This document shows, in pieces, positions 6,252-47,047 of a stretch of 64,000 nucleotides of DNA. Every line of letters starts with the position of its first letter. Positions within the stretch are counted from its first letter, which is position 1. Source of the DNA: Pseudomonas folii (GTDB lineage Bacteria > Pseudomonadota > Gammaproteobacteria > Pseudomonadales > Pseudomonadaceae); contig NZ_JACONW010000005.1 of NCBI RefSeq assembly GCF_014357575.1, positions 1 to 64,000 of the forward strand. The letters run 5' to 3'. A program made the position numbers and the translations under genes. Under the pieces are notes generated by a model, which did not search any database, had not been told where the DNA came from, and was given only the letters and a program-made list of their open reading frames with translations.

Positions 6252-7151
6252 ATGGATCGGGCGCTGGAAATGCAGGTGTTCTGCACCGTTGTAGATAAAG
6301 GCAGTTTTGTCGGGGCCGCGGAGCCACTCGACATGTCCAAAGCGGCCATATCGCGTTACGTAAGCGGGCTGGAGGAGCGGCTCGGCGCGCGGTTACTGCA
6401 CCGCACGACTCGCAGGCTGTCATTGACGGATGAGGGGCGTCAGTTCTATCACCAGGCCCGTGAGGTGCTGGCAATGATGGATGAGGCAGAAGAAGCCGTA
6501 TCGTCCACCTCGCCTGAGGCCAGCGGCGTTCTTCGCGTAAACGCCCCTGTCAGTTTTGGCGTGCTGCACCTGGCGCCGATTTGGGCTGACTTCATGAGCG
6601 CCTATCCCAAAGTCGAGTTGGAGATCAGCCTGAGTGATCGTCTAGTGGATTTGGTGGACGAAGGAATTGATGCTGCTGTGCGTATCGCACGCATGGAAAA
6701 TTCTTCGTTGGTGGGGAGACAGCTGGCCAGCACCCGGATGTGTTTGTGTGCATCGCCTGCGTATCTGGCCAGTCATGCACCCATCCGCAAATTGTCAGAT
6801 GTCGAACAGCATGAGGTGGTTGCCTACAGCAACTTTGCCAGCGGGAATGAATGGCATTTCGAAGGACCACAAGGCAGTGAAAGCGTAAACACGCGCTCAG
6901 TGGTTCGTTGCAATAACGGGGATACCTGCCGAGCCATTACCTTGGCCGGGGGTGGCATTTCGTTGCAGCCCAGCTTTATGGTGGCGCAGGATCTGCGGCG
7001 AGGCGATCTGATTGAAATATTGCCCGAGTACCGCTCCGTCGAATTGGGTATCTACGTGGTCTACCCGACCCGTAAACATTTGCCTGCGAAGGTGAGGGCG
7101 CTGATCAACTTTCTGGTGGAACGATTCGCCCATCCGGTATGGGAGCAGTGA
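6252..7151 (+). CDS. LysR family transcriptional regulator
   Basis: A 299-residue LysR-type regulator. The N-terminal winged helix-turn-helix (residues 1-62, with SKAAISRYVSGLEERLGARL) is followed by a periplasmic-binding-protein-like sensing domain. It belongs to the CrgA/PA2877-like group, with the RLLHRTTRRLSLTDEG motif. It is divergent from the reductase-dioxygenase-hydrolase-DoxX operon, and the 110-bp gap between them presumably carries the shared operator. The ligand is unknown. Two more regulators of the same group occur at 8411 and 13315. Confidence 0.93.
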   Translation: MDRALEMQVFCTVVDKGSFVGAAEPLDMSKAAISRYVSGLEERLGARLLHRTTRRLSLTDEGRQFYHQAREVLAMMDEAEEAVSSTSPEASGVLRVNAPVSFGVLHLAPIWADFMSAYPKVELEISLSDRLVDLVDEGIDAAVRIARMENSSLVGRQLASTRMCLCASPAYLASHAPIRKLSDVEQHEVVAYSNFASGNEWHFEGPQGSESVNTRSVVRCNNGDTCRAITLAGGGISLQPSFMVAQDLRRGDLIEILPEYRSVELGIYVVYPTRKHLPAKVRALINFLVERFAHPVWEQ

Positions 7152-7162
7152 TTCACGCTGAC

Positions 7163-7207
7163 CAAAAAAGCCGGCTGATAAAAAGGGGAAATCAAGCCAT
7201 CAGCCGG
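7163..7207 (-). terminator. Probable rho-independent terminator of the hydrolase gene at 7274
   Basis: CCGGCTGAT (7171-7179) and ATCAGCCGG (7199-7207) are perfect inverted repeats of 9 bp around a 19-base loop. Read on the minus strand, the stem is followed at once by CTTTTTT. This fits termination of leftward transcription from the alpha/beta hydrolase gene, and it also separates the two convergent genes. Confidence 0.7.
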
Positions 7208-7273
7208 ATAAAAGGAGCGCTGTATCAGGATCGTCCGCACTCCCAGAAAATCAGGGCGCGGTCATCCATCGAG

Positions 7274-8275
7274 TTAGTGTCGTTGCAAAAAGCTGTGCAG
7301 GTCCGCGGCAAATTTCTCCGGGTTCTTGAAGGCCAGAAAATGATCGCCTTGCTCAGCCTTGGTGTACACGTGAAGCACCGAGTCCTGGATGACCGAATTC
7401 ATCCAGCGCTGACTCTCCAGCCAGTCGCTGTACTCGCCGGTGAAGATCGCGGTCGGCACATTGATCTTTGACCGGATCACATCTCGCCAGTCGTTGGTTA
7501 CGTGATCGAAAAGCACCTGTGAGGTAAATGCCATGTCATCTTTGACCACCTCTTGCACGAGGCTGATGACGTTATGAAAGTAGGGTGAGTCCATCGCCAT
7601 CGCACGCTCGACAACCCGGCTTCCAGAAACGAGCATGTTGGTGGCGGTGCCGTGCGCATAGGAGGCAATCATCCGCTCGGGTGACGTGGTGAACGCCCCT
7701 GCCTCCAGTCGCTCCTGCTCTGTCCAGTCAGCGTGGCAATAGATCGAGGGTGCCTGGTCAATGATGCTCAGTGTACGAATGCCTTGGGTACCGAACAGAT
7801 CAATGAAGGCCCACATCACCGAAGCGCCCATGGACCAGCCGCAGTAGTTGGCCTGCGACACACCCAGGTGGTTGGCAAATTCCTTCACGTCCATGGCATA
7901 GCGGGAAATGCGATGACCAAAGGTTACCCGTTCAGAAAGACCCTGGTTTCTTACGTCCAGCACGTACACACGGTAGTGCGTGCTCAAGAGATGCATCAGG
8001 TGAAAGTACATCGCACCATTGGCCGACCAGCCTGGGATAAAAATCAACGGTTGCCCGGTACCTGCTTCCCAATAACTCAGGTTGATCGCGTCGCTGGTGG
8101 TGAAGCTGCTTATCTTTAGATCAGCGAAGTCAGATGTCCGAAAGGGCTGGCCAATGATCTCGTGGGGGAAGTAAAAATCTTCGGTGAGCAAAGTGTTAAG
8201 CGGGACAGCTTTCAATGGGTATTTCAAGAAGGAAGCACCTGCAGTCTGGAATTGGCGATGGACATGTCCAGGCAC
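7274..8275 (-). CDS. Alpha/beta hydrolase
   Basis: A protein of up to 333 residues with an alpha/beta-hydrolase fold. The oxyanion region IFIPGWSANG is near residue 76, the nucleophile elbow GWSMGAS follows in mid-protein, and the catalytic histidine is probably in the QGDHFL segment near the C-terminus. The start is uncertain: the open frame begins at a GTG (8275), but the first 25 residues do not resemble the family and a TTG at 8227 is also possible. It is divergent from the LysR gene at 8411, which probably regulates it. The substrate is unknown. Confidence 0.85.
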   Translation of the reverse strand: MPGHVHRQFQTAGASFLKYPLKAVPLNTLLTEDFYFPHEIIGQPFRTSDFADLKISSFTTSDAINLSYWEAGTGQPLIFIPGWSANGAMYFHLMHLLSTHYRVYVLDVRNQGLSERVTFGHRISRYAMDVKEFANHLGVSQANYCGWSMGASVMWAFIDLFGTQGIRTLSIIDQAPSIYCHADWTEQERLEAGAFTTSPERMIASYAHGTATNMLVSGSRVVERAMAMDSPYFHNVISLVQEVVKDDMAFTSQVLFDHVTNDWRDVIRSKINVPTAIFTGEYSDWLESQRWMNSVIQDSVLHVYTKAEQGDHFLAFKNPEKFAADLHSFLQRH

Positions 8276-29980: not shown

Positions 29981-30239
29981 GTCTGTGTTGAACTGATGCT
30001 CGGTACCTTTTGGGGCCGAAGCATGTTGCTATGAATATGTGGTGTGATGCCTTGGCAGGATCATATGGCTAGAGGCTATCCGGATCCCCGAAAAACATTT
30101 TGACTAGGCTCTAGGACGGTTTTTTCAGCTAAAAAAATCAAGTTATGCCCCCATTTTTGCCCCTATTCGCACCGGGTGTTCAAGCGATCGCGAACGGCGA
30201 TTTCCACCGGCCTCAAGTCTGGCAGTGCCTGGATCAAGC

Positions 30240-30836
30240 CGGCAGCGTTGTTGGTTACGCCCTGACTCTTGCACTCGCGATTTTTGTTCCTAGTGGTATC
30301 GGTCAGGTCGTCGACGATGGTTGCGGTCATAATCGACCCAAGCAGGCCTACAACTGCCAGCGCTGCGGAGTAGAGAAAGATGATACGCAAGGCTTCAAGG
30401 TTCAACGGCACTTCAGGCCACAGGAAAATCCTTAGCGTCTCTGGCAGTTGGCCCATATCACCTATGCTGCGGATATCCAGCCCCAGGTAAATCGCGATGG
30501 CAGTCAAGATCGGAATGCACACCAACGGCGAGGGAATCAGCTTGCCAGTCACCGGTACATACGGGAACAGGTAGATGATCACGAGACCCACTGCGGTCAT
30601 GGCGTAGACGTGCCAGCTCACGTTGGTCAATTCAGGTAACTGCGGCATGAAAATCAGAGTCGCTAACGCGTTCACAAACCCGGTGACCACGGAGCGGGAA
30701 ACGAAGCGCATCAGCGACCCCAGCCTCAGGTAACCCGCGACGATTTGAAGTACCCCACAGAGCAAGTTGGCGGCCAGCAGATACTGAAGTCCGTGATCTT
30801 TAACGAGGGCTACCATTAACAATATTATGGCACCCG
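30240..30836 (-). pseudogene. Internal fragment of a SulP-family anion transporter gene
   Basis: Read leftward, about 200 codons encode the middle of a SulP permease: [60 protein letters not shown] and SIMTATIVDDLTDTTRNKNREC. The N-terminal helices and everything after the last segment, including the STAS domain, are missing. At 30836/30837 the sequence passes without a gap into an arsB fragment on the opposite strand, which marks a rearrangement junction. Confidence 0.88.
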
Positions 30837-31225
30837 TAACCGACTCGCTCTCGGCGCTACTGAACATATTTGCTGTGCATGGTGTGTGGGCCGCTACCTT
30901 GGGCACGGGTATCACCGCTGCGCTGTTATCTTGGATCATGAACAACATGCCGAGTGTGCTTATCGGCGCTCTTTCCATTCAGGCCAGCGACGCTACCGGA
31001 CTGGTACGTGAGGCCATGATCTATGCCAACGTCATCGGTTACGATCTCGGCCCCAAGATTACGCCAATCGGAAGCCTGGCCACGTTGCTGTGGCTGCACG
31101 TCCTGGCGCAGAAAAATATCCGTATCACCTGGGGCTACTACTTCAAAGTCGGCAGCATCCTCACCATCCCTATCTTGGTAGTGACGCTAGTGGCACTGGC
31201 GTTGCGGCTTAGCATTCCTGTCTAG
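30837..31225 (+). pseudogene. arsB: 3' fragment of the arsenite efflux gene arsB
   Basis: About 130 codons encode the last third of the ArsB arsenite/proton pump: [60 protein letters not shown] and the C-terminal helix. ArsB is normally about 427 residues. The first two thirds are replaced by the inverted sulP fragment. An ATG at 30827 could start a short product, but it could not be a working pump. The arsC gene follows after 9 bp, so the old operon order arsB-arsC-arsH is still visible. Confidence 0.9.
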
Positions 31226-31234
31226 GAGAACCCC

Positions 31235-31705
31235 ATGAAAGTGCTCTTTATGTGTACGGCAAACAGCTGCCGGAGCGTTCTCTCGGAGGGGGTATTCAAC
31301 CACCTGGCCCCGAGCGGCTTTACTGCAGTCAGTTCGGGCAGCTTCCCAAGCGGCCAGCTGAATCCACGCGCCGTGAGCACGCTGCAAGCGCTGGGTATCG
31401 ACACCACAGGTCTCTACAGCAAAGGCTCAGAGGTTTTCTCGGATTCCCCACCGGACGTGGTGATCACGGTGTGCGACAAGGCCGGAGGCGAACCATGCCC
31501 GGTTTATTTTGGGCCTGCTGTGAAAAGCCACTGGGGCCTTGCCGACCCGTCGGATGTGGAAGGAACAGACGGCGAAATCCAGGCCGCGTTTGACGCGACA
31601 GTCAACCAGATTAGAAAGCGTTTTGAAGCATTTTTCAATCTCGATCATTTCGCACTTGCACCGGTGGAACTGAAGCGCGAGCTAGATCGAATAGGTGGCC
31701 TGTAA
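31235..31705 (+). CDS. arsC: Arsenate reductase, thioredoxin-coupled type
   Basis: A 156-residue arsenate reductase of the low-molecular-weight phosphatase fold. The P-loop is CTANSCR (C7 to R13), and the resolving cysteines are C80 (VITVCDKA) and C88 (GEPCP). It reduces arsenate to arsenite using thioredoxin. AGGAGAACCCC precedes the ATG. The gene is intact, but both neighbours, arsB and arsH, are truncated and no arsR of the arsenic type is present, so expression and benefit are doubtful unless arsenite efflux is encoded elsewhere. Confidence 0.95.
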   Translation: MKVLFMCTANSCRSVLSEGVFNHLAPSGFTAVSSGSFPSGQLNPRAVSTLQALGIDTTGLYSKGSEVFSDSPPDVVITVCDKAGGEPCPVYFGPAVKSHWGLADPSDVEGTDGEIQAAFDATVNQIRKRFEAFFNLDHFALAPVELKRELDRIGGL

Positions 31706-33624: not shown

Positions 33625-33907
33625 GGGTGGGCACTCGAGTGATGGACCATCCATGGCTCAGTCATTTGATTGTATTGGTAGGTTAAAGAGATTGGTGGTG
33701 TCATATGGCTACCATTCGTATCGGCGGGTAGGAAGCTCACTTTAGTGTTGGTCAAGAAAAATCCAGGACATGACAGAACTCTCAAGAAATTGAGTAGGGA
33801 AGGCTGGAAGTTATTCACTATTGCGGTGGACAGGCTTTATTTGGCTGCCATGTTGTCTGGCGTAAATCTGCCACAGACTGTGTTGAGGAGCTGCAGCGAT
33901 GACGGGA

Positions 33908-34125
33908 TCAGTCGAAATTTTCAGCAGAATGTTAGCGCCAATGACCGCTGCCGCACCGCCGATGCGGGTTGAGATCTGCCCAAAAGGCATCAGTTGAATA
34001 TGGTTGGCTGCTGGGAGGATGGCGACGTCCCTTCTACCGCGCAGAAAGCTGTGGCAGCAGGTGACGATGGCCGCCTCGATGGGGGACATCTTCATTAGAT
34101 TAAGGACCATGAACCTTGCAGTGTA
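33908..34125 (-). pseudogene. 3' remnant of a 2-hydroxycarboxylate transporter gene
   Basis: About 70 codons encode NLMKMSPIEAAIVTCCHS, DVAILPAANHIQLMPFGQ and ISTRIGGAAAVIGANILLK, closely matching the last 70 residues of the intact 2HCT transporter at 45583-46929. The conserved GLGGTGD loop has become FLRGRRD. A one-base deletion just before the stop shifts the frame, so the original stop at 33908 is out of frame. No upstream part remains. Confidence 0.88.
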
Positions 34126-34199
34126 AGCGTCTGGCCAGCTCACCTTCCTGAGCACGACGCTAAAGGCGATGGTGTCCACCAAGCCCAGAAAACACGGGA

Positions 34200-34459
34200 T
34201 ACTGCTCAAAATGCTGGCGCTTCGCTGTTTGAAATTACGGAGTTCATCGACAATGTCACCGAGCGTAACGTGCTCATTGCGACAGCCTCTGAAGAGCAGG
34301 CTCGGGCGGGGTGCCAGAAAGGTGGATCGCAGCCCTGTAAGTATCCGCGTCCTCTCAAATCAGTCCTTCGAGGGTTTAAATCCGACCGCTATTGCAACAT
34401 CGGAGCTCGCCAAGCTTGCGGTTGAACTTAACATGCTGATGAAGCAGTTCCATGTATAG
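34200..34459 (+). pseudogene. 3' remnant of a chemoreceptor gene
   Basis: The plus strand encodes AGASLFEITEFIDNVTERNV and LIATASEEQARA. After a frameshift near 34310 it reads VDRSPVSIRVLSNQSFEG and ELAKLAVELNMLMKQFHV, then a stop at 34459. This is the very C-terminal end of a methyl-accepting chemotaxis protein different from the intact one at 32002. The rest of the receptor is gone. Confidence 0.85.
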
Positions 34460-34708: not shown

Positions 34709-36124
34709 TCAGTTCTGCGAACGCGGTTGCCAACCCCCGCCCAACGCTTTGAACACATCGAGTCGAGCTGAGCCAACTTGTTGATCTGCCGTCGCAGCCT
34801 GCGACCTCCTGCTCACCAAGCTATTTTGCGCCACCATCACGTCCAGGTAACTTATGGAGCCGGCCCGGAAGCGTTGCTCGGCCAACATGAATGCGCTCTC
34901 GGCATGATCACGCGCTTGAATCAAGGCATTGCGTTGCTCGATGGCACCTTGATAGGTACTCAGGGCTTGTTCGGACTCCTTTAACGCTGTCAGCACCACA
35001 CTGTCGAAGTGTGCCAGCGAGGCTGCGCTCTGGGCCTGGGCCTGCGCAATGCGGCTACGTGCTAGGGTCATGTTCGGGAACGTCCATGAAATTAACGGCC
35101 CGAAGGAGAACGACCAAGCGCGGTCGCCTTGTAGGGAGTCGTTGCGCAGGTAGCTGGTCGAGGCACCGAGCGTGACCCGGGGATATAGGTCTGCAACTGC
35201 CACGCCGATACGTGCAGTGTCAGCGGCCAACTTACGCTCGGCCTGGCGGATGTCGGGGCGTCTGCGCAGCATGCTCATGCCATCACCAACCGGAATGGCG
35301 CCTTTTACTTCTGGAGCTTTTTCACACCAACTCGCCGCTTGTGGTATTTGCGAAGGTGGGCGGCCCGTCAGAGCTGCCAATTCGAACAACGCCGCATTTC
35401 TTTGAGCTTGAATACGTGGTACCGCTGCTTCTGCTTGGGCGAGTGCCTCACCAGATCGCTCCACATCAAGCAGCGAGCCGGAGCCGGCACGCTGGTGTCG
35501 GGTCACTAGGTCCAGCGTTCGGCTTGCAAGTTCAACAGAGGAGCGTGCTACTTCAACGGACTCTCCGTAAGCACAGGCATCCACGTAGGCTCGCGTTGTC
35601 TCCGCGACCACTACCACCTTGGTAGCATCACGGGCCGCATTGATAGCCTCAATATCGCCACGTGCCGCTTCGATGTCGCGCCTCACACGCCCGAAGAGAT
35701 CCAGCTCGTAGGAAATATTCAACCCCCCGGTGTAGCTCCACTGCACAGGTGCTTGGCCGGTCCCGCTTGAAGCCGTTTGGTTGCGGCCGCGGCTGACGCC
35801 GGCGGACACATCAGTGGAAGGCAAGAGTTCCCCGCGCGTTTCTCGATAGATCGCGCGCGCTCGGTCTAGGTTTGCTAACGCCGTGCGCAGTTCGGTGTTT
35901 GCAGACAAGGCCTCCGCCACGATTGCGTCGAGGGCTGGGTCGTTGTAAAGCTTCCACCACTGCGCAGGAGGCGAAACGGCATTCACGTGCGTCGAGTCAC
36001 TGACGAATGAGCCCGATGTCTTTTCAGGAAAGGCCACAGGTTGATAGTCCGGCCCACTGGCGCAGCCAGCCACACTGAGGGCTAACGCCAGTACAGCTGG
36101 CCGAGTCGCTCTTTCAATCTGCAT
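34709..36124 (-). CDS. Outer-membrane efflux lipoprotein, NodT/OprM family
   Basis: A 471-residue outer-membrane factor of RND pumps. The signal peptide ends in a lipobox with the acylated cysteine at C21 (LSVAGC). Two outer-membrane efflux protein repeats follow, with typical LDLFGRVRRDIEAARGD and MLRRRPDIRQAERKL segments. It forms the TolC-like exit duct. Its start overlaps the end of the RND permease gene by 11 bp, so it is the last gene of the operon that begins with the MFS-adaptor fusion. Confidence 0.94.
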   Translation of the reverse strand: MQIERATRPAVLALALSVAGCASGPDYQPVAFPEKTSGSFVSDSTHVNAVSPPAQWWKLYNDPALDAIVAEALSANTELRTALANLDRARAIYRETRGELLPSTDVSAGVSRGRNQTASSGTGQAPVQWSYTGGLNISYELDLFGRVRRDIEAARGDIEAINAARDATKVVVVAETTRAYVDACAYGESVEVARSSVELASRTLDLVTRHQRAGSGSLLDVERSGEALAQAEAAVPRIQAQRNAALFELAALTGRPPSQIPQAASWCEKAPEVKGAIPVGDGMSMLRRRPDIRQAERKLAADTARIGVAVADLYPRVTLGASTSYLRNDSLQGDRAWSFSFGPLISWTFPNMTLARSRIAQAQAQSAASLAHFDSVVLTALKESEQALSTYQGAIEQRNALIQARDHAESAFMLAEQRFRAGSISYLDVMVAQNSLVSRRSQAATADQQVGSARLDVFKALGGGWQPRSQN

Positions 36125-39100
36125 GGGGCACCTCCGCTGAGGTCAGCTCGCGCTGGCGCGCGCTGTTCGCTGCGACGCGGTGGTCCTTGGCGATAAAGCT
36201 GTAGATGGTCGGCAAAACGAATAGCGTGAACAGCGTACCGATTAGCATGCCTGCCACGACCACGATACCGATTGAGAAGCGGCTGGCAGAGCCTGCACCC
36301 TCTGCAAAGACGAGCGGTACCAAGCCAGCGACCATCGCCGCAGTCGTCATCAGCACCGGGCGCATACGAACCGCGGCGGCTTTTTCGATGGCTTCGAGCC
36401 GACTCAGGTTCTCGTCTTGTTGGATTTGATTGGCGAAAGTGACCATAAGAATTCCGTGCTTGGATATCAGACCGATCAGCGTGACCAGTCCGATCTGCGT
36501 ATAAATATTCAGCGTGGCATAGCCAAGCCAGAGCGGTACCAGGGCGCCGCACACTGCAAGCGGCACCGTGACCAGAATCACCAACGGATCACGCAGGCTC
36601 TCGAATTGCGCCGCCAGGACAAGGAAGATGACCACCAGCGCGAAACCGAAGGACAGCAGCAGACGGTTGCCTTCCTGCACGAATTGGCGGCTGTCACTAA
36701 GCCAATCGACACTATTTCCCGGCGGCAACGACTGGGATTGCAGGAAAGCCACAGCCTCACCCATGCTGACGCCGGGGCGGGGCAGCAATTGCACCGTGGC
36801 GGAGTTCATCTGGCCGAACTGTGTCAGTCCGTTGGCTTGGGCGAGTGACTGAACGTGGACTACCGTCGATAGCGGAACCAGTGCGCCGGAACTTGCCTTG
36901 ACGTAGAAACGGCCAAGATCGTCGGGCGTCATGCGGTCGCCGGCTTGCACCTGCGGGATGACATCATAAGAGCGATCGTGGAAATTGAAGCGGTTGACGT
37001 AGTTCTCGCCGACCAGCACCGCCAGCGTGTCGGCGATTGCCTGCATGGTCACGCCCATCTCGCGTGCCTTCGTGCTGTCGATGGCAACGTGCGCCTGTGG
37101 GCTGTCGAACGCCAAATCATTCTGCACGTAAAGGAATAGACCGCTTGCGTAGGCCGCTCTCTTGATTTGCTCAGCCGTCTCAAACAACGTCGAGAAATCA
37201 TTGGGCGAGCGCAGCACCATCTGCACCGGAAGGCCACCGCTTGATCCTGGAAGCGGCGGCAGCTGGATCGCCGTCAGTGTTTCACCGTCGATACTACTGC
37301 CGGCTGCCTGGATCTGGCTCTGAATCTGAATAGACGAGCGATCGCGTTCGGACCAGTCTTTGAAGATGGCGCCGCCCAGCATCTGGTTCTGGCCACGGCC
37401 CGTACCTCCAATATGCATAAAGCTGTTATCGAACTCGGGCAGCGACTCGAAAATCTTTTCGAGCTTCTCGGCATAGTGGGTCGTATAACCAACACCGGCA
37501 TATTGGGGTGCTTTGGCGATGACGATGACCGCACCCTGATCCTCGACTGGAGCGAGTTCGCGGCGAATCCCGAGGAACAAGACCACGATGGCAGCCAGGA
37601 TGGCAAAGCCAAACAAAAGAACCGCACTGCGCGCGGCCAACGTACGGGCTAACAGAAGCCGGTAGACCGATGTCAACCCGACCATGTAGCGCTCCACGAG
37701 CTTGGCCATCTTTGTCTCGCTCTGCTTGGAGCGGAGCAACATCGAGCTCATTACTGGCGATAGGGTCAGAGCAACCACGCCGGACACGATCACCGAACCG
37801 GCCAGCGTGAATGCGAACTCCTTAAAGAGGGCTCCTGTCAGGCCACCCATCATCCCTATTGGCGCGTAGACCGCCGCCAGAGTGATGGTCATGGCGATGA
37901 CCGGGCCAACGATTTCACGTGCGCCGAGCAAAGCCGCACGCACCGGCGTTGCGCCTTCCTCGATATGGCGATGGATGTTCTCCACCACCACGATGGCGTC
38001 GTCTACCACCAGTCCGATGGCCAGCACCATCGCCAGCAGCGTTAATAGATTAATTGAGAAGCCGAACGCCAACATGAGCGCTGCCGTCCCAACTAGAGAG
38101 AGTGGGATGGTTACAACAGGGATGATGACTGCACGGAAAGCTCCCAAGAACAGGAAGATCACCGCGATGACGATCACGATGGCCTCTATCAACGTGTGTT
38201 CGACTTCCGCGATCGACGCGTTAACGAACCTCGCCACATCGTAGTTAGGCATCACTTTCAACCCGGGCGGCGCCATTGCACGGATTTGCGGAACTAGTTC
38301 ATTTGCCTGTTTAACGATTTCCAGCGGATTGCCATCCGGCGTCGGAAAAATCGCAACGAACACGGCCGGAATACCAGTGGCAAAGGAGGCGTTGTTGTAG
38401 TTCTGCCCGCCGATCTCTACCGTCGCCACGTCTGAAAGCCGCACAACGCCGCCGATCGCTGTGGTCTTGATCACCATCTTGCGGAAGTCGTCCACGCTAC
38501 GAAGGTCAGTGGCCGCGCTGATGTTGGTCACGGTCAGTGAGCTTTTCAGCTGGCCTGGTGCGGACTGCACGTTGCTGGCGCGTAAGGCGGCAGCAATTTC
38601 ACCTGCTGACAGACTGCGAGCGGCCAGCTTCAAAGGGTCGATCCAGATGCGTAAGGCCAGTGTCTGGCCTCCGTAGATGTCTACGGAGCCTACCCCCGAT
38701 ATACCGGCGAACATGGGCTGTGCGACGCGGGCGACGAAGTCGGTAACCTGGGGGATCGTAAGGGTGTCGCTGTAGAAAGCTACATACTGGACAGCGGTGC
38801 CGCCCTCGGTGGACTTGCTGATGACTGGGTCGGCTACGCCGGCTGGCAGTTGGTACTTTACCTGCTGAACTTTCGCCAGAATCTCAGTCATTGCGCGATC
38901 GGCGTCGGCGTTGAGCACCAGTCGGGCTTTAATTTCGCTGCGGCCCTGAGTGGTCGTCGAACTCAGATACTCGATACCGCTGGCTGTGGCAATCGACTGG
39001 GAGATTGGCGTAGTTACGAAACCCTGCATGACCTCTTGAGCAGCGCCAGGTAGCGACGTGGTTATGTTGATGATGGCGTTTTCGAGGTAGGGATACTGGC

Positions 39101-39203
39101 GTACTGGCAGAGAGAAGACCGAAGCTAGGCCTGCCAGCAATATGAGCAGGCTCACTACTAGCGCCAGGATAGGCCTCCGAATGAAAATATCAGTGACATT
39201 CAT
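36114..39203 (-). CDS. RND efflux permease, HAE1 (AcrB/MexB-like) family
   Basis: A 1029-residue inner-membrane RND pump of the hydrophobe/amphiphile efflux-1 family. It has twelve transmembrane helices and two large periplasmic loops. The proton-relay aspartates are D401 and D402 in GLVVDDAIVVVEN. It starts MNVTDIFIRRPILALVVSLL. The start overlaps the stop of the fusion gene (39200-39203), and the end overlaps the OMF gene, giving a tightly coupled three-gene operon. Substrates cannot be read from sequence. The divergent TetR gene at 42018 is the likely repressor. Confidence 0.95.
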   Translation of the reverse strand: MNVTDIFIRRPILALVVSLLILLAGLASVFSLPVRQYPYLENAIINITTSLPGAAQEVMQGFVTTPISQSIATASGIEYLSSTTTQGRSEIKARLVLNADADRAMTEILAKVQQVKYQLPAGVADPVISKSTEGGTAVQYVAFYSDTLTIPQVTDFVARVAQPMFAGISGVGSVDIYGGQTLALRIWIDPLKLAARSLSAGEIAAALRASNVQSAPGQLKSSLTVTNISAATDLRSVDDFRKMVIKTTAIGGVVRLSDVATVEIGGQNYNNASFATGIPAVFVAIFPTPDGNPLEIVKQANELVPQIRAMAPPGLKVMPNYDVARFVNASIAEVEHTLIEAIVIVIAVIFLFLGAFRAVIIPVVTIPLSLVGTAALMLAFGFSINLLTLLAMVLAIGLVVDDAIVVVENIHRHIEEGATPVRAALLGAREIVGPVIAMTITLAAVYAPIGMMGGLTGALFKEFAFTLAGSVIVSGVVALTLSPVMSSMLLRSKQSETKMAKLVERYMVGLTSVYRLLLARTLAARSAVLLFGFAILAAIVVLFLGIRRELAPVEDQGAVIVIAKAPQYAGVGYTTHYAEKLEKIFESLPEFDNSFMHIGGTGRGQNQMLGGAIFKDWSERDRSSIQIQSQIQAAGSSIDGETLTAIQLPPLPGSSGGLPVQMVLRSPNDFSTLFETAEQIKRAAYASGLFLYVQNDLAFDSPQAHVAIDSTKAREMGVTMQAIADTLAVLVGENYVNRFNFHDRSYDVIPQVQAGDRMTPDDLGRFYVKASSGALVPLSTVVHVQSLAQANGLTQFGQMNSATVQLLPRPGVSMGEAVAFLQSQSLPPGNSVDWLSDSRQFVQEGNRLLLSFGFALVVIFLVLAAQFESLRDPLVILVTVPLAVCGALVPLWLGYATLNIYTQIGLVTLIGLISKHGILMVTFANQIQQDENLSRLEAIEKAAAVRMRPVLMTTAAMVAGLVPLVFAEGAGSASRFSIGIVVVAGMLIGTLFTLFVLPTIYSFIAKDHRVAANSARQRELTSAEVPHAD

Positions 39204-41539
39204 CGCTGATCTCCTGCAGGCGACTCGGTATTGATCTTCACCGGGCCGCCGGGCTGCAGCCTGTTCTGCCCGGCAACCACTACGATGTCGCCGGCCTTGA
39301 TGCCACGCGTCACCATCACGTCTTCGCCAAGCCTGCGGCCTAAGAAGACCGGAACGGCCACGGCTTTTCCGATCCCTTGTGCGTCGGCCTCCTGAACGAG
39401 TACGACCCGGTCGCCCGAGGCGGAGGTTTGGATCGCCGTCAATGGCAGCACGATGGCGTCATCGGTCGCCGGCAACTCCAGCGCTGCGGTTGCGTACATA
39501 CCGGACTTCAACAGGTGGTCGGTATTCGAGAGCGTTGCCTGGACGGTGCCGTTGCGCGTTTCCCCGTCTATGCGCGGCTCGATGGTGCTAACTGTGGCTT
39601 GGAACACCCGTCCTGGAGCAGCATCCACAAAAATTCGCACCCGCGCACCGATCGACACCCTGAAAAGCTGATGCTGAGGCAAGGTGAAATTGACGTATAA
39701 AGAGTCGAGGTCCGTTAGCGTAGCGATGGCATCGCCGGCGTTCAGATACTGGCCCACGTTGACGCGTCGGATGCCGAGCTGTCCGGAGAACGGCGAACGA
39801 ACGTTTTTTTGCTCAATGCGAGCATCTAATTGGCGGACAGCCGCGTGCGCCTGGCTAGCCTCGGACTTGCGCTGATCCAGCAGCTCTCGGGGCTCTGCCC
39901 CAGTGGGCGCCAGCTCCTGTGACCGCCGTAATTGCATCTGGGTGAAATCGGCCCGCGCCACGGCGGCTGCGCGATCTGCCAATTCGGGGGCATCGTAAAG
40001 CTGAACCAGCGAGTCGCCTTCCCTAACGACCTGGCCCGCTGTGAAGTTGATGGCAGTTACTCTCCCTGCGGAATCAGGGGCCAGAAGAACTTCACGAACA
40101 GCTTGCAGACCGCCAACTGCTTGCAGTTCTTCTGCGACGCTGCGGGGCTGCGCAACGATGGTCGAAACCAATGCTGGCGGCCTCGCCGGTGGGGCTGCGG
40201 CTCCCGCGCGTGCTACGCGCCAGGCGTACAAGCCGCAAAAGATGATTGCCAGGCCAACCAGACTGAGCAGGATTGCATGTGTATTTCTGCTGAGCTTGCC
40301 GGAATTACCGTTTTCAGAGTGTGCGCTCGTTGTCGGCGCGTTAAAAAGCAATCGCAAGGCGATGAACAGAGCCAGGGCGACGGCGATAGCTCCCGCTAGG
40401 TAGACCGAAGCAATCCCCTGAGCGCCAGCCAGCGCGCCGGCCAGCGGACTGGCCAGGCCCAGTGCTATATCCATAAACGCCACGTAAGCGCCCATGGCCA
40501 GGCTGCGAGTCTGCACAGGGGCGCGTCGCACGGCTTCTACACCGAATGCCGGAAAGGCCAGTGAGTAGCCAAAGCCCGTCAGCGCGGCACCCAAGTAAGC
40601 TAGCGACGTAGTGTCTGCGCCCCAGATGAGCAACTGCCCGATGGTTTCGATGACCACGCTCACGAGGGCCACCTTGGCACCCCCAAGCTTATCGGGCAGG
40701 TGCCCCAAGAAAATGCGCGCGCCGATGAAGGCCAGACCGAATGCCGTGAAGGCAAGCGAGGCATTCCCCCACTGCTTCTCGGCGAACAGCAGCGCAATGA
40801 AAGCGGTGATTAGGCCGAAACCTACGCTTGAAAGCGCTAGGCCCATACCAGGCCACAACACCGCGCCCAGCACCTTGTAAAAAGGCGTTCGACGGTTGGC
40901 AGAAGGCGCGACAGCGCGCACCCGCGCGGCCACGGCGAGGGCCAGGAAAGGAATGATCGTCACGGCGACCGCAATGCCTGAGAACCCCCACTGAGCGTTG
41001 ACCGCAACACCCAGGGGCGCACCCAGCGCGTAGGCTCCATAGATGGCCATGCCGACCCAGGCCATCACCTTGCCCGCGTGCTGCGGCCCTACCAGTCCGA
41101 GGGACCAGCCCAGCGCCCCGGTAGCGATGAGGCTTTCGCCCAGTGCCAGCAATATACGGCCTAGCACCAGGATCCATACGGATGCGGCAGGTGTGGAAAC
41201 GAAAACCAGGGAGGCGATATAGGCCAGGCCGGAACTGGCCGAGAATAGACAACCTACGATCACTGCACGTCTGGCGCCCTTCAGGTCAGCGAGGTTACCA
41301 GCCCAAGGGCGGGAGAGGAGGGCGACGGCAAATTGCATGCCGATGACTAAACCGATTGCCAGATTGCTCATGCCGAGGGAGTCGTGCAGATGCAGCGGCA
41401 GCACAGGCATCTGCATTCCAATAGTCAGAAATGCGATAAAGACCGCCAGAGTAATGGGCAGCAGCGTCAGAAAGACATTGCCAGTTTGCGATGACTCCAC
41501 CGCCGGCGTCGGCGAGGAGGAGTTCAGAGTTGAAGCCAT
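39200..41539 (-). CDS. Fusion of an MFS transporter and an RND periplasmic adaptor subunit
   Basis: A 779-residue two-domain protein. Residues about 20-405 are a complete major-facilitator transporter with some twelve hydrophobic segments and the motif-A-like loop GNLADLKGARRAV. A linker (SAHSENGNSGKLSRNTH) leads to one more transmembrane helix (ILLSLVGLAIIFCGLYAWRV). Residues about 440-779 are a membrane-fusion protein with the lipoyl halves (VLLAPDSAGRVTAINFTAGQ; RSPFSGQLGIRRVNVGQYLN), a helical hairpin and a beta-barrel. An even number of MFS helices plus one more puts the adaptor in the periplasm, as needed. The start at 41539 is by similarity; the frame is open to 41686. The fusion seems genuine because no stop or frame change lies near the linker. 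Confidence 0.88.
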   Translation of the reverse strand: MASTLNSSSPTPAVESSQTGNVFLTLLPITLAVFIAFLTIGMQMPVLPLHLHDSLGMSNLAIGLVIGMQFAVALLSRPWAGNLADLKGARRAVIVGCLFSASSGLAYIASLVFVSTPAASVWILVLGRILLALGESLIATGALGWSLGLVGPQHAGKVMAWVGMAIYGAYALGAPLGVAVNAQWGFSGIAVAVTIIPFLALAVAARVRAVAPSANRRTPFYKVLGAVLWPGMGLALSSVGFGLITAFIALLFAEKQWGNASLAFTAFGLAFIGARIFLGHLPDKLGGAKVALVSVVIETIGQLLIWGADTTSLAYLGAALTGFGYSLAFPAFGVEAVRRAPVQTRSLAMGAYVAFMDIALGLASPLAGALAGAQGIASVYLAGAIAVALALFIALRLLFNAPTTSAHSENGNSGKLSRNTHAILLSLVGLAIIFCGLYAWRVARAGAAAPPARPPALVSTIVAQPRSVAEELQAVGGLQAVREVLLAPDSAGRVTAINFTAGQVVREGDSLVQLYDAPELADRAAAVARADFTQMQLRRSQELAPTGAEPRELLDQRKSEASQAHAAVRQLDARIEQKNVRSPFSGQLGIRRVNVGQYLNAGDAIATLTDLDSLYVNFTLPQHQLFRVSIGARVRIFVDAAPGRVFQATVSTIEPRIDGETRNGTVQATLSNTDHLLKSGMYATAALELPATDDAIVLPLTAIQTSASGDRVVLVQEADAQGIGKAVAVPVFLGRRLGEDVMVTRGIKAGDIVVVAGQNRLQPGGPVKINTESPAGDQR

Positions 41540-42017
41540 GAGGTTGTCCGTTCTACATCTGGAGGAGGCCCTAAGGCGCTGTGCATTAAAAATACGATCA
41601 ATGTTTCGCATTTTGTCAACAATATGAGGAATTAATCGCATTGAAAATTCGCATTTCGGTTCGCGTTTTATATGCCGCCGCCTCAAGCCGTGAAATACAG
41701 CTAGCTAGCGCTAAAAGAGAGACTTGACGCTGAAACGAATCAAGCCACGAAGAGCGAAGGTTCCTTAAGTACTCAGGTTTTTCGTCAAGAAAACCGCGTT
41801 TTCGGTGGCTACCGAGTGCGATCAGTTAATTGCACCGCTACAGGGCGCGGAGGAACTTTGGGGGCACTGCGCCATTGGCCGAGACAGTCGACTAGATGGT
41901 CGCTTGAAGGCTGTGCGACTGGCCAATACCGCGCTAGAATATGAGCGATTCATCGCATTGAAGATGGCGGTGAATAACCAACATTTCTCTTATCGAACAT
42001 CGCGTTGCCAGGCCAAG
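41540..42017. promoter_or_regulatory. Divergent control region of the RND operon and its TetR gene
   Basis: This AT-rich 478-bp gap separates the fusion gene from the TetR gene. TCGCATT occurs as direct repeats at 41606, 41636 and 41649, and again at 41953. On the minus strand TTGACA (41619-41614) is followed at about 18 bp by a TATTTT-like -10, a plausible operon promoter lying among the repeats. The repeats are candidate regulator sites; nothing else was recognised here. Confidence 0.45.
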
Positions 42018-42650
42018 ATGACCACACGCCGCCGTCCCGATATCGCTTCGCGCAAGCAACCCCAGCAAGTGCGTTCAACTGAACTGGTCGCCGCTATTCT
42101 TCAGGCAGCAACTCACGTTCTTGCACAGGAAGGCTCCACCCGCTTCACTACGGCGCGCGTGGCGGAGAAGGCCGGTGTCAGTGTTGGATCGGTCTATCAG
42201 TACTTTCCCAACAAAGCGTCGATCCTGTTCCGCCTGCAGACCGATGAGTGGATGCACACCACCCAGATGCTGCGAGACATTCTCGAAGACGCAAAAAACC
42301 CACACTTCGAACGTTTACGCACACTCGTCCATACCTTTCTGCGATCAGAATGCGAAGAAGCTGAGGTTCGCGGTGCGCTCAATGACGCGGCACCGCTCTA
42401 TCGCGATAGCCCTGAGGCTCAAAAAGCCCGGACCGAGGGAGATCGGATGTGCGAAGCCTTCATCGTTGAGGTGTTGCCGAACGCATCAGCGTCGTCTCGT
42501 GTGCTGGCCGCAGACCTAATCTTTACGACGCTCGGCACGGTCGGGAGTGATTTTTCTCGCACCCGGCGGACTAAGGCAGAAATCAAAGCTCAGGCCGATG
42601 CGATGGCCGATATGTTTTGCGCTTACCTCCAGGCGCTGCAACAACCGTGA
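42018..42650 (+). CDS. TetR family transcriptional regulator
   Basis: A 210-residue TetR-type repressor beginning MTTRRRPDIASRKQPQQVRS. The helix-turn-helix is VAEKAGVSVGSVYQYFPNKA, and a TetR_C-type ligand domain follows. The frame extends upstream to 41805, but the family N-terminus matches the ATG at 42018. It is divergent from the MFS-adaptor/RND/OMF operon and is the obvious candidate for its repressor. Confidence 0.9.
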   Translation: MTTRRRPDIASRKQPQQVRSTELVAAILQAATHVLAQEGSTRFTTARVAEKAGVSVGSVYQYFPNKASILFRLQTDEWMHTTQMLRDILEDAKNPHFERLRTLVHTFLRSECEEAEVRGALNDAAPLYRDSPEAQKARTEGDRMCEAFIVEVLPNASASSRVLAADLIFTTLGTVGSDFSRTRRTKAEIKAQADAMADMFCAYLQALQQP

Positions 42651-45582: not shown

Positions 45583-46929
45583 TCAGGCGAAGATTTTTAG
45601 CAGGATGGTTGAACCGATGACCGTTGCAGCACCGCCAATGCGTGTGGAAATCTGAGCGAATGGCATCAGTTGCATGCGATTGGCAGCCGAGAGAATCGCA
45701 ACGTCGCCAGTCCCTCCCAAGCCACTGTGGCAGCAAGTGACAATCGCTGATTCGATGGGAAACATCTTCATTAGGTTGCCGACCAGAAATCCTGCCGCAG
45801 TCATTGCAACCACCACTGCGAGACACACCATAACGTAGCCGATAGAAAAGACCTTCACGACACTATCCAAGGGTACGTAGAGCATGCCCAGGCCGATCAT
45901 CACCGGCCATATAAAAGCCGACGAAACCAATTTGTAGAATGTATGGCAGCCTTTTTCGAGTCGATCTGGCAGGGCGCGCACGTACTTGAACACCACGGCG
46001 GCGAGAATCATCATCACCGGACCAGGGATGCCGACTACTTTTTCAAGCAAGCCACCGAAGACGAAGAACGCGCAGATCAACAGAACGCCAGCGCCCATCA
46101 GGCGAAAATCTACAGGGCCGTTGTCGTCTTCTTTGACCTTGAACTTGTCGTTCTCTTCTTTTGCACGGATCAGGGTGCCTTCACCGTTGATGGATGGTCG
46201 CTTGAGCGCGATGCGTGCCAGCACGCCGGAGCAAATGATTGCAATGATATTGCCAACTACCGCTGCCGGCACTAACTGAGCCACATACTGGTCCGGTGTG
46301 CCTCCTAGGATTGCAGAATACGCCAAGGACAAAGGCAGAATACCTTCTCCAATCCCACCGCCTAGAATAGGCACGATGATGAAGAAGAAGGTGTGGTGAA
46401 TCGTGTACCCAAACAGCTGGCCGACGAGCATTCCTGCGACGACTGCGGCGAGCGTTCCCGCTGCAAGTGGAATGAACATTCTCAGCATTCCCTGGATTAG
46501 GGTAAAGCGGCTCATGCCCAATATGCTGCCAACCACCAGACTGGCAATCACGAAGTAGAGAAAGTTGGCGTCCTTCATGAGCATCTTGGTGGCATCAATC
46601 GTCGGAGCACCAAAAAAACCGTAGAAAACTAAAACCGACGGCAGCATCAAGCAAAGAATAGCGCCGCCGCCAATTTCCTTGAGCAGGGGCAACCGCTGGC
46701 CGAGTTGTCCGAAAAACACGCCCATGGTCATGATGACGGCCAGTCCACCGATCATGTTTTTGGGCAAAAAGCCCAAGTGCGCGGACAGAAAAACTATGAC
46801 AGCAATACCAATGAAAATGGGTAATGGGATAACGCCGATTTCATACGCAAGTATAGAGTTCAATCGGCTTTTAATGCCGCTTGATGGGCGTGTGTTGCTT
46901 TCGACGGATTGCTTGTAGGGCGCATTCAT
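45583..46929 (-). CDS. 2-hydroxycarboxylate transporter (2HCT family, CitS/CimH-like)
   Basis: A 448-residue inner-membrane sodium- or proton-coupled carrier of the 2HCT family, which transports citrate, malate, citramalate or lactate. Two family-defining GGxG loops are visible: PILGGGIGEGILPLS in the middle and CHSGLGGTGDVAILSAANRM near the C-terminus, where ISTRIGG follows. AGAGGAA precedes the ATG at 46929. It is divergent from the LysR gene at 47048. The leuCD-like genes just beyond suggest that the imported acid is a 2-hydroxy C4/C5 dicarboxylate. A remnant of a paralogue lies at 33908. Confidence 0.92.
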   Translation of the reverse strand: MNAPYKQSVESNTRPSSGIKSRLNSILAYEIGVIPLPIFIGIAVIVFLSAHLGFLPKNMIGGLAVIMTMGVFFGQLGQRLPLLKEIGGGAILCLMLPSVLVFYGFFGAPTIDATKMLMKDANFLYFVIASLVVGSILGMSRFTLIQGMLRMFIPLAAGTLAAVVAGMLVGQLFGYTIHHTFFFIIVPILGGGIGEGILPLSLAYSAILGGTPDQYVAQLVPAAVVGNIIAIICSGVLARIALKRPSINGEGTLIRAKEENDKFKVKEDDNGPVDFRLMGAGVLLICAFFVFGGLLEKVVGIPGPVMMILAAVVFKYVRALPDRLEKGCHTFYKLVSSAFIWPVMIGLGMLYVPLDSVVKVFSIGYVMVCLAVVVAMTAAGFLVGNLMKMFPIESAIVTCCHSGLGGTGDVAILSAANRMQLMPFAQISTRIGGAATVIGSTILLKIFA

Positions 46930-47047
46930 GGTGCGTATTCCTCTGGTTGTTTTTATCGAGGATGTTTTTAGGTCACGGCCAGCGCGATGCATTGATCGGG
47001 CATTTTTGATGTTATCCTTGAAGAATTACATAATAAATAGCTAGGTC

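Follow-up and report, generated by a model that had tools for sequence, protein, structure and literature searches.

An MFS permease joined in frame to an RND-type efflux adaptor in Pseudomonas folii, and its unfused relatives

The window analysed here is a stretch of 64,000 nucleotides from Pseudomonas folii (assembly GCF_014357575.1, contig NZ_JACONW010000005.1, positions 1 to 64,000). It contains a minus-strand gene that encodes, in a single open frame, a permease of the major facilitator superfamily (MFS) followed by an adaptor of the type used by resistance-nodulation-division (RND) efflux pumps. The genes for an RND permease and an outer-membrane factor (OMF) lie directly behind it. The fusion is real and well formed, and its origin is explained by a sister operon, locus L041, in which the two genes are separate. 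The best explanation overall, which we hold tentatively and at a little short of an even chance, is that the fused adaptor would keep serving the RND permease and the OMF while the tethered MFS modules may feed substrate into the periplasm. The genes and parts of genes concerned are as follows.

39200..41539, minus strand: MFS-adaptor fusion gene, 779 residues (open frame, profile matches)
40307..41539, minus strand: MFS half, residues 1–411, YhhS/arabinose-transporter type, 12 predicted helices (profiles, prediction)
40304..40309, minus strand: junction, codons 411–412, G411/N412 (DNA comparison with locus L147, alignment with the L041 adaptor)
39200..40306, minus strand: adaptor half, residues 412–779, a predicted anchor helix at 418–445 and then an RND-type adaptor (profiles, alignment, fold)
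36114..39203, minus strand: RND permease, 1029 residues, VDD at 400–402 and ISKHG at 913–917 (profiles, reading)
34709..36124, minus strand: outer-membrane factor of the NodT type, 471 residues (profiles)

The fusion protein and its operon partners

The fusion gene comprises 779 codons and a stop codon, with zero internal stops, and its single product matched both Pfam MFS_1 (127.1 bits, cut-off 33.4) and HlyD_D23 (98.8 bits, cut-off 30). Residues 17–397 corresponded to NCBIfam PRK12382 (445.5 bits, cut-off 364), and the MFS half also passed PRK05122 (422.1, cut-off 374). We take these 'arabinose transporter'/MFS models to stand for the YhhS type; 'arabinose' is here a family annotation label and assigns no substrate. 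The stretch GNLADLKGARRA at residues 81–92 is presumably MFS motif A. On the adaptor side, residues 458–769 matched RND_mfp TIGR01730 (229.8 bits, cut-off 94.9). Structure prediction gave 12 helices within residues 22–399, an irregular stretch, a thirteenth helix at 418–445 and then the adaptor. The model of the whole fusion had a mean predicted local distance difference test (pLDDT) score of 64.8 with low confidence in the MFS half, for which the folding alignment held no MFS relatives (the L041 MFS row was misaligned in the joint alignment and was excluded), and the model was used for the helix count alone. The C-terminus of MFS permeases and the N-terminus of adaptors both lie on the cytoplasmic side, and from this family topology the 12 MFS helices would end in the cytoplasm and the extra helix would place the adaptor in the periplasm. 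For EmrB and EmrA, the accessible part of PMC13139468 likewise puts the C-terminus of the former and the N-terminus of the latter on the cytoplasmic side. The initial annotation had read the product as a complete MFS permease joined to a complete adaptor through one extra helix, and the profiles, the open frame and the predicted helices agree with it: both halves are complete, with the correct topology for a periplasmic adaptor. The MFS would accordingly be tethered covalently to the adaptor.

The junction could be placed to the codon. DNA similarity to the standalone MFS gene of genome G366 (locus L147) stops in codon 411, at a point where that MFS has 3 residues left. The window sequence LSRNTHAILLSLVGL was aligned to ISR-TKPIVISVVGL of the adaptor of locus L039, and N412, counted back without gaps, falls on the start methionine of both the L039 and the L041 adaptors, the placing on L041 being a reading of the sequences by hand. 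The end of MFS similarity in codon 411 and the position of N412 therefore suggest that a deletion fused the tail of the MFS coding sequence onto the opening codon of the adaptor, so that the MFS, minus about three residues, appears to continue directly into it. RNA folding at the junction revealed nothing (z 0.74).

The adaptor half resembles the adaptors of RND pumps over nearly its whole length. Residues 447/453–770 align to MexA and AcrA, to about 20 residues from their ends, and the fold matches also point to the AcrA/MexA type. A membrane-proximal region as in AcrA/MexA is present, as judged from the overall alignment and the fold matches, with no domain-by-domain comparison. The EmrA models scored far below their cut-offs (TIGR00998, 61.1 of 390.8; PRK15136, 24.4 of 563). 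EmrA itself is described, in the accessible part of PMC4338810, as being without the membrane-proximal domain of AcrA/MexA. The adaptor half is thus of the RND type, and because family, alignment, fold and operon neighbours all fit an RND permease and an OMF, we think that it probably still serves that pair. The suggestion in the initial annotation that one duct serves two inner-membrane pumps becomes less likely with an adaptor of this type.

The RND permease matched ACR_tran with 863 bits, and its VDD and ISKHG motifs hold what we take to be the proton-relay residues, giving it both the domain and the residues of an RND multidrug permease. It scored below the cut-offs of two named NCBIfam subfamilies (RND_permease_2, 1190.7 of 1250; TIGR00915, 737 of 940.35), and thus lies near but outside them. 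The OMF passed TIGR01845 (304.6, cut-off 210.05). The stop codon of the fusion gene overlaps the start codon of the RND gene in the sequence ATGA (39203–39200), and the OMF gene overlaps the end of the RND gene by 11 nt. The two partner genes had been described earlier as directly following the fusion and translationally coupled to it; the overlapping ends confirm the first point, and make coupling from the fusion gene through to the OMF gene plausible.

Unfused relatives and the rarity of the fusion

Locus L041 lies on JAITSV010000034.1, a contig of 204,662 bp labelled as a Desulfovibrio metagenome-assembled genome (MAG). It carries MFS, adaptor, RND and OMF genes in the same order as the window (identities 70, 73, 87 and 70%), and differs in that MFS and adaptor are separate genes. 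The L041 MFS (6438–7727) ends at a TGA at 7725, a second in-frame TGA follows at 7881, and the adaptor starts with an ATG at 7980 behind GGAGG, leaving 252 nt between the MFS stop and the adaptor ATG; the two genes share one reading frame. The window's TetR had no match in the 17 kb L041 locus. An operon 70–87% identical to that of the window on a contig assigned to a Desulfovibrio bin points to horizontal transfer or mis-binning.

Two trees, both made by a quick method without bootstrap, were used to place the halves. In the adaptor and RND tree (38 rows; loci with at least 50% adaptor and at least 60% RND identity, the window's own locus L001 being excluded), the window was sister to L041 with a Shimodaira–Hasegawa-like approximate likelihood ratio test value of 100. 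The two lay in a group of 12 rows, with one genome entered twice, whose members come from Pseudomonas, Burkholderia, Cupriavidus, Azoarcus and the L041 MAG; in the stretches read, L041 and the window were the only ones among them with an MFS. The MFS tree had 54 rows, in which one gene appears twice, and the program warned of long branches elsewhere in it; there the window formed a clade with two standalone MFS, those of G366 and a Klebsiella plasmid (98), L041 being the next outgroup (90). The MFS half is 80% identical to the standalone MFS of L147 (G366) and 83% to that of L168 (genome G1675); the latter, closer still and accompanied by a TetR of 85% identity, was not in the tree.

These standalone modules (L147, L168 and the plasmid locus L038) encode a related TetR (78–85% identical) and MFS (79–83%), and their MFS has its own stop codon, unlike that of the window. 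Further Pseudomonas TetR–MFS pairs are more distant (MFS 67–74%, TetR 61–65%). No RND operon of this type was found in the 14–19 kb read around L147, L168 and L038. L038 lies on NZ_CP099749.1, a Klebsiella IncFIB plasmid typed as conjugative, so that the MFS module occurs there on a mobile element; TetR, methyltransferase, SDR and MFS genes stand together, an IS5-family transposase gene separating the last two, and a lasso-peptide cluster is close by. The standalone MFS recurs behind TetR and methyltransferase genes (by annotation in L038, by visual reading in L147 and L168), with an SDR gene in L038 and L168, and in L147 and L168 the MFS is followed by a similar reading frame starting MKLLS/VKLLS.

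The simplest history would be that the ancestor shared by L041 and the window had an unfused four-gene operon, in which the fusion took place later, in the window's line. On this history the standalone MFS of G366 and of the plasmid would either have left the four-gene operon or never have shared it. Alternatively, the MFS and the RND operon may have met twice independently.

To gauge how widespread the fusion is, we searched with the whole protein in five overlapping samples of 369–398 genomes each; in most genomes only two candidates were scored. A stop-free match to both halves was found in one of 398 genomes in the family sample (E 1e-60) and in one of 398 in the phylum sample (E 1e-40), among the best matches listed; likewise in one of 398 in the genus sample (E 1e-100) and one of 369 in the class sample (E 1e-95). 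Each time it was the window's own genome. In the family of genome G1356 (inferred to be Burkholderiaceae), none of 398 genomes had a match through both halves (E 1e-95). The count of genomes with the same fusion that the initial annotation had proposed thus comes to the window's own genome alone among the matches listed. In the genus sample, the 23 genomes passing were this genome, 17 with MFS-only and 5 with adaptor-only matches. The search of the window's genome recovered the same place and no other match to both halves, the next best matches being 40% identical for the MFS half and 30% or less for the adaptor half. Genome contigs yielded 96 confirmed adaptor relatives, 80 of which were kept, and in loci L001–L137 no frame of at least 100 residues besides that of the window was matched by both halves. 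Among plasmids, 136 records matched (E 1e-30), none with a single place spanning 80% of the query. The fusion looks derived and rare, and on present sampling would be an event of a single species, not the mark of an established family. Relatives that always encode two separate proteins had been named in advance as a point that would undo the fusion; every relative listed, including L041, does encode two, and the fusion in this genome stands.

Several candidates from these searches were rejected; the tabulated open-frame lengths can span in-frame stops and are unfit as evidence for fusion. In G005, G036, G1378 and G1483, MFS or adaptor frames are merely open further upstream, and the adaptors of G1427 and G1070 (tabulated frames 1540 and 1439) lie in separate frames of 392 and 400 residues, respectively. 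The genome of L041 was tabulated with a frame of 898 and no stop, which contains the two TGA codons described above. In G1579 (864, one TGA) the MFS lies in a frame of 587 residues, and in G374 (match 19–487, 3 stops) it is of ordinary length, with no adaptor match in either case. The match in G374 and those in G1183 (23–466, 5 stops) and G1218 (adaptor side, 359–772, 2 stops) are the longest of several listed matches that pass the junction only through stops.

Proposed function and alternative explanations

The initial annotation knew of no covalent MFS–adaptor combination. This holds for natural proteins as far as titles and the starts of abstracts go in the open literature, without subscription papers, where none was found; the accessible parts of PMC8277102, PMC4446572 and PMC9505733 mention none. 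It does not hold for engineered ones: according to the accessible part of PMC13139468, a fusion of EmrB to EmrA conferred resistance in vivo when free EmrA and TolC were present alongside it. As in the window, the C-terminus of the MFS is linked there to the N-terminus of the adaptor on the cytoplasmic side and the anchor helix is kept. The engineered protein differs in being made in the laboratory from a modified EmrB, without an RND partner and with free EmrA added, whereas the window's fusion is natural, combines a YhhS-type MFS with an RND-type adaptor, and has RND and OMF genes in its operon. AcrAB-TolC and MexAB-OprM share the broad adaptor, RND and OMF families of the window, but their adaptors bear no MFS; the gene order of MexAB-OprM is adaptor-RND-OMF. 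The structure matches of the adaptor half included PDB 6vej, which we take to be a TriA-TriB chain. Like the window's protein, 6vej has a covalently linked adaptor, yet linked to another adaptor and not to a transporter; the same applies to the fused dimeric adaptors whose existence is noted in the accessible part of PMC4446572. A PADLOC search gave no match.

We propose that an in-frame fusion of neighbouring genes occurred in an operon of MFS, adaptor, RND and OMF, by which the MFS stop codon, the spacer and the adaptor start codon would have been lost, leaving one chain with 13 predicted helices. The chain would be produced at full length, and its adaptor half would assemble into the hexamer typical of such adaptors, placed between RND trimer and OMF; each RND pump would then be ringed by as many as six satellite MFS permeases. 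Substrate would be moved from the cytoplasm to the periplasm by the MFS and picked up there by the RND permease, in a covalently held two-step relay; loading from the cytoplasm and handover to RND and OMF is a possibility that the initial annotation had also raised. The general view is that inner-membrane exporters and RND pumps act in series via the periplasm. According to the accessible part of PMC4338810, trans-envelope pumps are potentiated by transporters that move drugs into the periplasm. Of this explanation, we are least sure of the relay step. A stronger form, in which an RND trimer and six adaptors, each with a covalent MFS, make up a two-engine machine with channelled uptake and removal under an MFS-type regulator, is doubtful.

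Conservation was compared among rows of at least 60% (MFS), 65% (adaptor) and 75% (RND) identity, with coverage of at least 85, 80 and 90%, respectively, identical rows being counted once and L001 again excluded. The MFS half changes 4 of 151 columns that are invariant in the other 22 rows (R87K, L108I, I164M and G331A), rank 3 of 23, and the RND permease changes 28 of 766 otherwise invariant columns, rank 2 of 11 (L041, 29 of 767). Differences between the MFS half and L147 number 63, 28 and 178 by codon position, and third-position differences dominate against both L147 and L041. Neither half bears an apparent sign of decay. Several points nevertheless weigh against our proposal. Among its 12 rows the adaptor half deviates most, with 15 of 182 otherwise invariant columns changed, although L041 comes close (13 of 180). 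The conservation and codon counts mostly reflect the time before the fusion, and therefore show only that neither half has visibly been lost since. With a single genome carrying the fusion, no case for selection on the fused state can be made. Finally, the engineered EmrB-EmrA protein was used with extra free EmrA, and the window's operon encodes no free adaptor.

The coupling of MFS and RND could be neutral, and we rate a useful fusion as only slightly more probable than a neutral one. That the fusion is a tolerated accident, a deletion having fused two co-transcribed genes whose MFS and RND pump go on working independently across a functionless link, is a serious possibility: it agrees with the single genome found in the searches and with L041, where both genes lie in one frame and an in-frame deletion suffices, and it would have come cheaply, the two termini being cytoplasmic already. 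Six bulky MFS domains per pump might be a burden and both halves are undecayed, points that speak against an accident without excluding it. An EmrAB-like device, in which the MFS docks on the adaptor hexamer for one-step export through adaptor and OMF with the RND permease as an alternative engine, would have the order and topology of the engineered EmrB-EmrA fusion (PMC13139468, accessible part), but it is improbable given the scores far below the EmrA cut-offs and well above that of RND_mfp, the near end-to-end alignment with AcrA/MexA, whose membrane-proximal domain EmrA does not have (PMC4338810, accessible part), and the YhhS type of the MFS with its 12 predicted helices. Moreover, cryo-EM of EmrAB-TolC gave one EmrB per six EmrA (PMC13139468, accessible part), and here every adaptor bears an MFS.

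It is less probable still that the chain is split in the cell, by an internal start or by proteolysis, into an MFS and a free adaptor. In-frame TTG codons at 395, 397 and 437 and several CTG codons could serve, but there is no in-frame ATG, GTG or TTG from codon 398 to 436, so that translation of a free adaptor would have to begin at an unusual codon, and the nearest TTGs sit at the end of predicted helix 12 or within the anchor helix. Least probable of all is a sequencing or assembly error that hides two genes in the real genome: the assembly is a draft of 289 contigs and the species is represented by one strain, but in comparison with L041 and L147 the whole spacer and the adaptor start are absent while the flanking coding sequences stay in one frame, for which a lost base is insufficient, and the same gene order occurs independently in L041. 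A natural covalent link and its unfused sister operon would allow a direct test of whether proximity makes two-step efflux more efficient. The fusion could also reveal how large a load of additional membrane proteins an RND-adaptor ring tolerates, and it suggests a route by which an MFS module with its own TetR comes to precede an RND operon.

Regulator and genomic surroundings

A regulator gene is divergent from the fusion gene, and the interval between them holds repeated sites.

42018..42650, plus strand: divergent TetR-family regulator, 210 residues (start by comparison with the 209-residue L038 TetR; family scans used 41991–42650)
41591..41612, no strand assigned: putative TetR operator 1, AATGCGAAACATTGATCGTATT, upstream of the fusion gene (motif search)
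41621..41642, no strand assigned: putative TetR operator 2 (motif search)
41938..41959, no strand assigned: putative TetR operator 3, before tetR (motif search)

The TetR is 78–80% identical to those of L038 and L147 and 85% to that of L168. A 22-nt near-palindrome occurs at the 3 sites, with 6 strand-matches against 0.19 expected and 0 of 100 shuffles reaching 6; the consensus was built from TetR–MFS intervals including that of the window, and the shuffles test rarity, not binding. In L147 the near-palindrome is found at 2 sites between tetR and the next gene, with a weak match (3 mismatches) elsewhere, at 872–893, and a similar motif is visible in other TetR–MFS intergenic intervals. By this comparison, the window's tetR and putative operators are similar to the ones that accompany standalone MFS genes. 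No promoter-like sites were found against 3.3 expected, and terminator-like sites numbered 9 against 8.1 expected.

The pump region is flanked by a fragment of a 2-hydroxycarboxylate transporter gene (33811–34209, minus strand; profile positions 348–414 of 415) and an intact copy (45583–46992, minus strand), 76% identical over 68 residues, a possible trace of insertion or duplication. Further away, a sulfate permease remnant (30163–30978, minus strand) overlaps the C-terminal third of an ArsB arsenite pump (30827–31225, plus strand), which adjoins a gene of the arsenate-reductase/low-molecular-weight-phosphatase type (31235–31705); judging by these remnants, 30163–31705 is a decayed stretch with a truncated ars operon.

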